A stretch of DNA of 64,000 bases from an uncultured Pelagibacteraceae bacterium. Its GTDB lineage: Bacteria; Pseudomonadota; Alphaproteobacteria; Pelagibacterales; Pelagibacteraceae. Positions 16,248 through 19,428 of the stretch are shown in pieces. The position numbers and the translations under genes were made by a program. Under the pieces are notes generated by a model. That model worked only from the letters and a program-made list of their open reading frames with translations. It ran no database searches and was not told the DNA's origin. Where the stretch lies: the NCBI GenBank assembly GCA_902579105.1, contig CACHFM010000002.1, positions 1-64,000 on the forward strand. Direction: 5' to 3'. The stretch's first letter is position 1, and each line of letters starts with the position of its first letter.

Positions 16248-16684
16248 TGAGTAAAATTTTAAAATTAACAATCTTTATTTATTTAATAATAACTTCTTTT
16301 ACAGTAGCCATAAGTAAGCAAAATTTTTTTGAGGAAGCTTTAAAAATGTATCAGGAAGAAAAATATGATGATGCACGTTTTTTGTTTGAAAGAAATATTG
16401 TTTACAACCCTAAAGACGCTATTTCTTATTTATATCTTGCCAAAATTTATAATCACGAAGAAGATGAGAGAAAAGAAAAGAATAATTTAGAGACAGCATT
16501 GTTAATTGAACCAAATAATGAAGAGGTTTTATTAATGTTAATGAAAATAGCCTTGAAAAAATCAAACTATTCTAAAGTTAAAGATCTTTCAAAAACTTTT
16601 GTTAAAGTTTGTGAAAAATTATGTAATGAAAATGACTCAATTCAAGAAACATTAAAAAATATAGAACCTAAAAATGAGTCTTGA
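16247..16684 (+). CDS. Small exported TPR-repeat protein
   Basis: A 145-residue protein with an N-terminal hydrophobic segment ([17 protein letters not shown]) that is a signal peptide or anchor, followed by two to three TPR-like helix pairs: [40 protein letters not shown] and [20 protein letters not shown]. TPRs are scaffolds; no enzymatic motif is present. It sits between guaB and guaA, overlapping the guaB stop by one base and guaA by 11, so it is co-translated with purine genes. Its function is unknown and a purine role is not implied by the sequence. Confidence 0.7.
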
Positions 16685-18236
16685 TCAAAATCTTGACAAG
16701 ATCTTAATTGTAGATTTTGGCTCACAATTTACACAATTAATAGCTAGAAGAATTAGAGAATTAGGTATTTTTTCTGAGATTGTGAGTCACAAAAAAATTA
16801 GAGTTAAAGATATAAATCAATCTATAAAAGGAATAATTTTATCTGGAGGACCACTAAATGTTTATCAAATAAGCAAATATACATTTAATAAAAAAATTTT
16901 AGATCTAAACATACCAATTCTTGGAATTTGTTTTGGTCATCAAATATTATCTAAGTTAAATGGAGGTAGAGTTAAGCAATCAAAACATCGTGAATTTGGT
17001 TTAGCAAATATTTATAGAAAGAATAATAGTCTTTTAACAAATAATTTTTTTACAAATAAAAAATTTAAAAGAGTTTGGATGAGTCATGCTGATCAAGTTT
17101 CTAAGCTCCCAAAAAATTTTAAAGTAATTGCATCAAGTGATAATTCAAAATTTGCGATTATTGAAAACAAAATAAGAAAATTTTATGGAGTTCAATTTCA
17201 TCCTGAAGTAACGCATACAAAAAATGGAAAAAAAATAATTAGTAATTTTATTTTTTTAATTTGTAAAATAAAAAAAAATTGGTCTCCAAAAGATCAAAAA
17301 ATTAAACTTATTAATAATATAAAAAAACAAGTTGGTTCAAGTAAAGTTATCTGTGCTTTATCAGGAGGTGTAGATAGCAGTGTTGTTGCACAGCTTTTAA
17401 ATAAAGCAATTGGAAAAAAATTATATTGTATTTTTGTAAACACTGGTCTTTTACGAAAAAACGAAGAAAATCAAGTTATTAATACTTTTAAAAAAAAATT
17501 AAAAATTAATTTAATTTATGTTAATGCGGAAAAAGAGTTTCTAAAAAAACTCAATAATGTTTCTGATCCAGAAAAAAAGAGGAAAATTATTGGTAATTAT
17601 TTTATAAAAATATTTGAAAGTTATGCAAAAAAAATTAAAAATGTAAAATTTTTAGCACAAGGAACACTTTATCCCGATCTAATTGAAAGCAAATCTGTCA
17701 CCGGAAGCGAAAGTTCTAAAATTAAATCTCATCATAATGTTGGGGGACTTCCAAAAAAAATGAAATTAAAACTTATTGAACCTTTGAAGTTTTTATTTAA
17801 AGACGAAGTTAGAAAATTAGGTTTAGAACTAAATTTGAGTAAAAGTATTATTTCAAGGCATCCATTTCCAGGTCCTGGATTAGCAATAAGAATACCTGGT
17901 TTGATTACAAAAGAAAAAATACAGATTTTAAAAGATGCCGATTATTATTTTATTAAAGCTTTAAAAGATCATGGTTTTTATCATAAAATATGGCAAGCCT
18001 ATGCAGCTTTATTACCTGTAAAAACTGTAGGCGTAATGGGTGATAATCGGACATATGAATATATATGTTTATTAAGAGCAATTACCTCTGAAGATGGAAT
18101 GACTGCTGATTTTTATGATTTTAAAAAGTCTTTTTTGCAAACAATTTCGAATAAAATAGTAAACAGCATAAGAGGAATTAATAGAGTTGTATATGATATT
18201 ACATCTAAACCACCTAGCACTATTGAATTAGAATAG
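16674..18236 (+). CDS. guaA: GMP synthase (glutamine-hydrolysing)
   Basis: A 520-residue two-domain enzyme converting XMP to GMP. The N-terminal class I glutamine amidotransferase shows LSGGP at 57-61, nucleophile Cys86 in GICFGHQ, and the [10 protein letters not shown] His-Glu pair. The ATP-pyrophosphatase domain begins with the PP-loop [12 protein letters not shown], followed by TLYPDLIES and a C-terminal dimerisation domain ending [17 protein letters not shown], the conserved guaA terminus. It completes the guanine route begun by guaB. Confidence 0.98.
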
Positions 18237-18259: not shown

Positions 18260-18679
18260 ATGAAATATTTACACACAATGATTAGAATTAAAAATGTCGA
18301 TGAGTCATTAAGATTTTTTTGTGATGGTCTTGGACTGAAAGAAACAAGAAGAAAAGATAGTGAAAAAGGAAGATACACATTAATCTTTCTTGCACCTCCG
18401 AATGATGAAAAAACAGAAATTGAATTAACTTATAATTGGGATGGTGATGATCTAGGAGAAGGTTCGAGAAATTTTGGACATCTCGCTTATAGAGTAGATA
18501 ATATTTATGAAACTTGCCAAAAATTAATGGATATGGGCTATACAATTAACAGACCTCCTAGAGATGGTCATATGGCATTTGTTAGATCTCCAGATCAAAT
18601 TTCAATTGAACTACTTCAAGAAGGATATCTAGATCCTAAAGAACCTTGGGTATCAATGGAGAATACTGGCTCTTGGTAG
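18260..18679 (+). CDS. gloA: Lactoylglutathione lyase-like glyoxalase
   Basis: A 139-residue VOC-fold protein: MKYLHTMIRIKNVDESLRFF, TLIFLAPP, IELTYNWD, FGHLAYRVDNIYETC and ISIELLQEG. The metal ligands expected for glyoxalase I are present (His at residue 5, Glu in IELTYNWD, His in FGHLAYRV, Glu in ISIELLQ). It isomerises the methylglyoxal-glutathione hemithioacetal to lactoylglutathione. Length is typical (about 135). It follows guaA by 23 bases and is followed by a panB fragment. Confidence 0.9.
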   Translation: MKYLHTMIRIKNVDESLRFFCDGLGLKETRRKDSEKGRYTLIFLAPPNDEKTEIELTYNWDGDDLGEGSRNFGHLAYRVDNIYETCQKLMDMGYTINRPPRDGHMAFVRSPDQISIELLQEGYLDPKEPWVSMENTGSW

Positions 18680-18683
18680 TTTG

Positions 18684-18816
18684 ATGAAAAAAAAATTTTT
18701 GGATTTAATTAATAAAAAAATATGCAAACATAAGAAAAGAAATTAATAAAGCAGTATCTAGCTATTCTAAAGACGTGAGAAAAAAAAGGTTTCCTTCAAA
18801 AAAACATTCTTATTAA
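18684..18816 (+). pseudogene. Remnant of panB C-terminus (ketopantoate hydroxymethyltransferase)
   Basis: From 18718 one frame reads KKYANIRKEINKAVSSYSKD and then VRKKRFPSKKHSY before a stop at 18814-18816. This matches the diagnostic PanB tail pattern (Y..DV...FP...HSF/Y). In that frame there is a stop at 18706. From ATG 18684 the other frame reads MKKKFLDLINKK, and dropping one A from the A7 run at 18714-18720 would join the two into a 43-residue peptide. The catalytic body of PanB is gone. Read as a fossil left after loss of pantothenate synthesis; a surviving small ORF with an A-run indel is the alternative. Confidence 0.6.
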
Positions 18817-19428
18817 TTAAAAGTATTTAATAAATTTTTCATTTATTTTTAAGATCTCAAGATCTACTAATCCACCAATTACTAATTGAAGGCCAACAAT
18901 TAATATAAAAATTAGTCCAATATAAGCTATCCAAATATGCTTTTGAATATAATTGGCCATATAGCTAGCCAATGCCCCTGTAAGAACAACTGACAAAACT
19001 AGTCCAAAAATCATGTATCCAAAATAACCTTTTGAAGCAGCAACTACGCCGATAACGTTGTCAAAACTAATCATAATGTCAGCAAATAAAACTTTTCCGA
19101 TACTGCTTATATACGAAGGTTCTTTAATTTTTTTTGGCGACTGCTTTACTTTTTTGATATCTAATAAATCTTTTCTTAAATCATTTACGATCCAAATTAA
19201 AAGAAGACCACCTAAAATCTTTACAAAATAAAATTCAAATAAAAAAGTTGCAAAGATCGCAAAAAATATTTTGAAAACAAAAGCTCCTATAACACCCCAA
19301 AGAATTATTTGTTTTCTGTTTTTGGGAACGAAGTTAGATGCAATAGAACCAACAATTACAGCATTATCAGCTGTTAATATCATGGTGATAAAAATAATAT
19401 TAGTTAAAATAATGAGTTCTTCAATCAA
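18817..19428 (-). CDS. TerC-family integral membrane protein
   Basis: A 203-residue protein with about seven hydrophobic helices. Family signatures are TADNAVIVGSIA near residues 19-30 and ADIMISFDNVIGVVAAS near 115-131, which place Asp-Asn pairs within the membrane. TerC/YjbE/YkoY proteins are linked to tellurite resistance and, in better studied cases, to manganese export or metalation of secreted proteins. No partner gene is adjacent, so substrate remains open. It is convergent with the glyoxalase region and the panB remnant. Confidence 0.88.
   Translation of the reverse strand: MIEELIILTNIIFITMILTADNAVIVGSIASNFVPKNRKQIILWGVIGAFVFKIFFAIFATFLFEFYFVKILGGLLLIWIVNDLRKDLLDIKKVKQSPKKIKEPSYISSIGKVLFADIMISFDNVIGVVAASKGYFGYMIFGLVLSVVLTGALASYMANYIQKHIWIAYIGLIFILIVGLQLVIGGLVDLEILKINEKFIKYF

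Follow-up and report, generated by a model that had tools for sequence, protein, structure and literature searches.

A probable panB pseudogene formed by a single internal deletion in a Pelagibacter genome, with predicted import of pantoate or pantothenate

In genome reconstructions of gut bacteria, the presence of PanC without PanB represents the pantoate-salvage ("Apt") variant of vitamin B5 auxotrophy (PMC6593275). Among the papers searched, none brought together SAR11, panB and pantothenate auxotrophy, or SAR11 and pantothenate biosynthesis. In relatives within Pelagibacter, panB lies in the gene order guaA, gloA, panB and convergent terC, and an intact panB frame of 256–259 codons was found at the gloA/terC site in 35 different genomes, as an earlier note on this DNA had anticipated in suggesting a search for the full-length gene there. 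The gap from the last gloA codon to the last terC codon is 784 bp in the largest spacing group of relatives, in which PanB has 257 residues, begins with MKKKILDLIxKKNK, and ends with KKHSY or KKNSY. In some relatives (L046, L056, L070, L076, L080, L088, L091, L113, L117, L120, and L121), the spacing between gloA and panB is larger by ~400 bp (gap of 1181 bp versus about 784–792 bp), possibly with a small extra gene. The panB of genome G239 (L110, G239:C2, about 1304–2025) is broken into two overlapping frames, through an indel in the assembly or because the gene is a frameshift pseudogene. G066 and G367 also contain short frames, which were considered as further fossils and rejected, being cut by contig ends.

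In the window, by which we mean the whole 64,000-nucleotide stretch analysed, the corresponding gap measures 143 bp; the missing sequence is 641 bp, which is not a multiple of three. The flanks retain the ancestral order. The guaA gene (GMP synthase; positions 16674–18236, forward strand, 520-residue ORF) is located upstream, as it is upstream of gloA in the relatives, followed by a gloA-like gene (18260–18679, forward strand, 139-residue ORF; glyoxalase/lactoylglutathione lyase type, the enzyme name being that of the earlier note), the protein of which is 81–93% identical to its counterparts in relatives. On the downstream side, a convergent gene for a terC-like membrane protein (18817–19428, reverse strand, 203-residue ORF) is present, as it is beyond panB in the relatives. 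Between them, directly behind the gloA-like gene, the original panB start codon and first 12 codons (MKKKFLDLINKK; 18684–18719, forward strand) align with MKKKILDLI-KKNK, with which the intact panB of relatives begins, and the last 33 codons with their stop (KKYANIRKEINKAVSSYSKDVRKKRFPSKKHSY, KKYANIRK...KKHSY; 18715–18816, forward strand, TAA at 18814–18816) are found in a different frame. The A7 run at 18714–18720 (forward strand) marks the junction of the internal deletion. The earlier note had recorded the ATG at 18684 and described the A7 run as separating it from the downstream frame; the ATG is there, but it is panB's own start codon, and the run is no spacer but the deletion junction. 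A miscount of this homopolymer as the sole cause of the lesion was rejected, because it cannot explain the absence of 641 bp.

In a profile search of the genome, the downstream piece, or tail, matched positions 227–258 of the 259 of PF02548 (PanB) with an E-value of 6.8e-5 and 22.2 bits, a score below the curated whole-protein cut-off of the family, as expected for a 33-residue piece; it was the sole PF02548 match in the 1.22-Mb assembly. Compared with the C-terminal ends of the full-length PanB ORFs that match it best in relatives, the tail shows 70–82% identity, the 82% being reached with a 262-residue ORF in G444. Taken together with the syntenic site, the profile match and these identities bear out the proposal that the frame ending SYSKDVRKKRFPSKKHSY is a PanB C-terminus, and the enzyme body is indeed gone, residues 13–224 being deleted with only the two ends left. 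The locus thus has PanB similarity at both ends (PF02548 for the tail and the intact panB start for the N-terminal piece), the orthologous gloA/terC position seen in 35 relatives, and a disabling lesion in the form of a frame-shifting internal deletion.

We also considered whether the remnant, instead of being a dead gene, might encode a conserved short protein or act as a regulatory leader, given that a 35-codon frame is uninterrupted and looks constrained at the codon level. However, all counterparts of the tail that could be checked in relatives either form the end of a complete PanB reading frame or stop at a contig edge, and the constraint on the codons stems from the time when PanB was still whole. 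In addition, no ATG, GTG, or TTG follows the preceding stop as a possible start of the frame, only TTA-type codons, and the original panB start leads through the junction out of frame into a 20-residue ORF (MKKKFLDLINKKICKHKKRN; 18684–18746, forward strand, as read from the sequence), for which no support for a function was found. A functional short gene or leader is thereby most improbable. Neither of the findings named beforehand as fatal to the panB assignment was obtained: PanB similarity is present, and no conserved 43-residue ORF under purifying selection was seen at this site in the relatives that could be checked.

Based on these features, we conclude with good confidence that the stretch is a panB (ketopantoate hydroxymethyltransferase) pseudogene produced by a single 641-bp internal deletion, probably through short A-rich repeats, and we predict import of pantoate or pantothenate. 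In many relatives, both breakpoints fall in A-rich stretches having 7–9 nt in common (e.g. AAAAAAATA), and in a few relatives the repeats share only 5–6 nt. Random pairs of breakpoints within panB had at least 8 nt in common in about 0.07–0.5% of trials, and this rarity makes a deletion between short repeats likely. The deletion places codon 12 directly before codon 225 in a different frame, probably after two short A-rich repeats close to the panB ends slipped or underwent illegitimate recombination, and the gene can no longer provide ketopantoate. Recombination between the repeats is therefore put forward as the likely cause, a step that is proposed rather than seen because the ancestor of the window strain is not at hand.

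The deletion is private to the window genome among the genomes sampled, with no second genome carrying the same junction among 399 of the genus. In the tree of guaA and gloA, the row nearest to the window is G235, in which panB is intact (support 96/83), and the panB-minus clade described below is placed on a different, fully supported branch. The median pN/pS of the remnant tail against functional tails is 0.27, compared with 0.34 for functional tails among themselves, and at a single column where all the other tails agree, the remnant has R in place of K. The tail would accordingly appear to have been constrained for nearly all of its history, and the deletion to be recent; as the tail shows no relaxed selection, the deletion is either young or, with lower probability, artefactual. 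The latter reading supposes that panB is intact in the organism and that the 641-bp deletion arose from template switching between the A-rich repeats during amplification, or from mis-assembly. It would account for a remnant undecayed apart from the deletion and for a deletion seen in one genome only, and the genomes of several close relatives come from single-cell amplification, which is prone to chimaeras. Against it, the contig that holds the window is 134 kb long and the neighbouring genes are intact, only four other stretches of at least 120 bp without an ORF of at least 90 residues occur in the 64 kb, and many assemblies of a separate clade lack panB at this site, showing that the loss is tolerated in the genus. 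We therefore regard an artefact as unlikely.

The rest of the pathway was surveyed in the window genome assembly (92.7% complete, 1.22 Mb). The profile search found no other PanB in the assembly, although a copy in the missing part is possible. The panC gene is intact (G000:C7:31981–32745), with no changes at positions where the 22 other copies in the comparison agree; a check for panB and panC elsewhere in the genome, suggested earlier, thus returned the latter alone. The coaX gene (G000:C5:18958–19545) and ilvC are also present, the product of ilvC being known also to reduce ketopantoate in E. coli and B. subtilis (PMC11487621). The panE gene is absent from the window genome and is likewise missing in several genomes with panB, so that it is uninformative as a marker of pathway loss. 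No panD (PF02261) was detected in any of the 24 Pelagibacter genomes tested, with positive controls, and panC is usual in Pelagibacter despite this. Some relatives possess a divergent PanB-like paralogue (about 110–130 bits; e.g. L219, G022:C6, 5322–6137), which adjoins ApbA/PanE-like, aldolase-like, and aldehyde-dehydrogenase-like genes, probably as a catabolic cluster; this paralogue is absent from the window genome. The earlier view that pantothenate synthesis has been lost in the lineage is not supported as worded, inasmuch as, among the genomes sampled, panB persists in the closest relatives and in most members of the genus, and with panC, ilvC, and coaX intact here, one step (ketopantoate formation) rather than the whole pathway has been lost. 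Because these three genes remain intact while panB is lost, the cell is predicted from its gene content probably to need external pantoate, used by PanC, or pantothenate, used by CoaX.

A second, unrelated loss was found in 13 related genomes without PanB above the family cut-off, 11 of which are at least 90% complete and all of which contain panC. Where the site was inspected in this group, the last codon of gloA lies 8 bp from that of terC, with no trace of panB; the clade (L092–L100, L102, L103, L106, L125, L126, L132, and L164) has lost panB independently and cleanly, and the panB-minus, panC-plus state is stable. The median pairwise dN/dS of panC in these genomes is 0.12; PanC is therefore still under selection, and must obtain pantoate from some source. 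An unrecognised enzyme replacing PanB, here and in the panB-less clade, would supply it with no auxotrophy, and the retention of panC by all 13 relatives at this dN/dS is compatible with such an enzyme. Yet the analysis turned up no candidate gene. The surroundings of panC are the same with and without panB, as compared in G000, G086, and G022, and hold no replacement gene. Moreover, the PanC-based pantoate salvage published for gut bacteria needs no new enzyme (PMC6593275), and we consider a replacement to be quite doubtful. Retention of panC under purifying selection without panB points instead to pantoate salvage, as judged from these sequence comparisons.

With respect to uptake, the window genome contains a transporter of the SBF family (G000:C11:1365–1919), to which the pantoate transporter PanS presumably belongs; this gene occurs in most relatives, and is not discriminating because it is present with or without panB. 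The panB loss in the window is ordinary genome streamlining, in which a vitamin gene loss has been caught in a streamlined free-living bacterium with both gene ends still readable; what merits further attention is the recurrence of the panB-minus, panC-plus state. The loss in the window, together with the independent clean loss accompanied by selected panC, suggests that pantoate may be traded among marine bacteria. It is possible, at somewhat less than even odds in our judgement, that pantoate (or ketopantoate), and not pantothenate alone, is exchanged in the ocean as a dissolved precursor of the vitamin, like HMP for thiamin.

In comparison with the intact panB of relatives (3-methyl-2-oxobutanoate hydroxymethyltransferase, PF02548), the window remnant agrees in site, start, and C-terminal sequence, whereas it lacks residues 13–224 and has its ends out of frame, so that no enzyme is possible. 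The panB-less clade (e.g. AG-453-K23, AG-894-G18, AG-905-M17, and AG-918-K13) resembles the window in that panB is gone from the same site and panC is kept, but represents an older, clean removal without a remnant on a separate branch of the tree, while the window keeps both panB ends. Of the features of the Apt variant, absence of PanB (here from a 92.7%-complete assembly) and presence of PanC and a pantothenate kinase were found in the window genome; for the pantoate transporter, the SBF-family protein, shared with relatives that have panB, is a candidate. Like the Apt variants of the gut genomes, it keeps PanC and CoaX with PanB absent; in contrast to them, it has neither panD nor a panD-panC-panS operon (PMC6593275).
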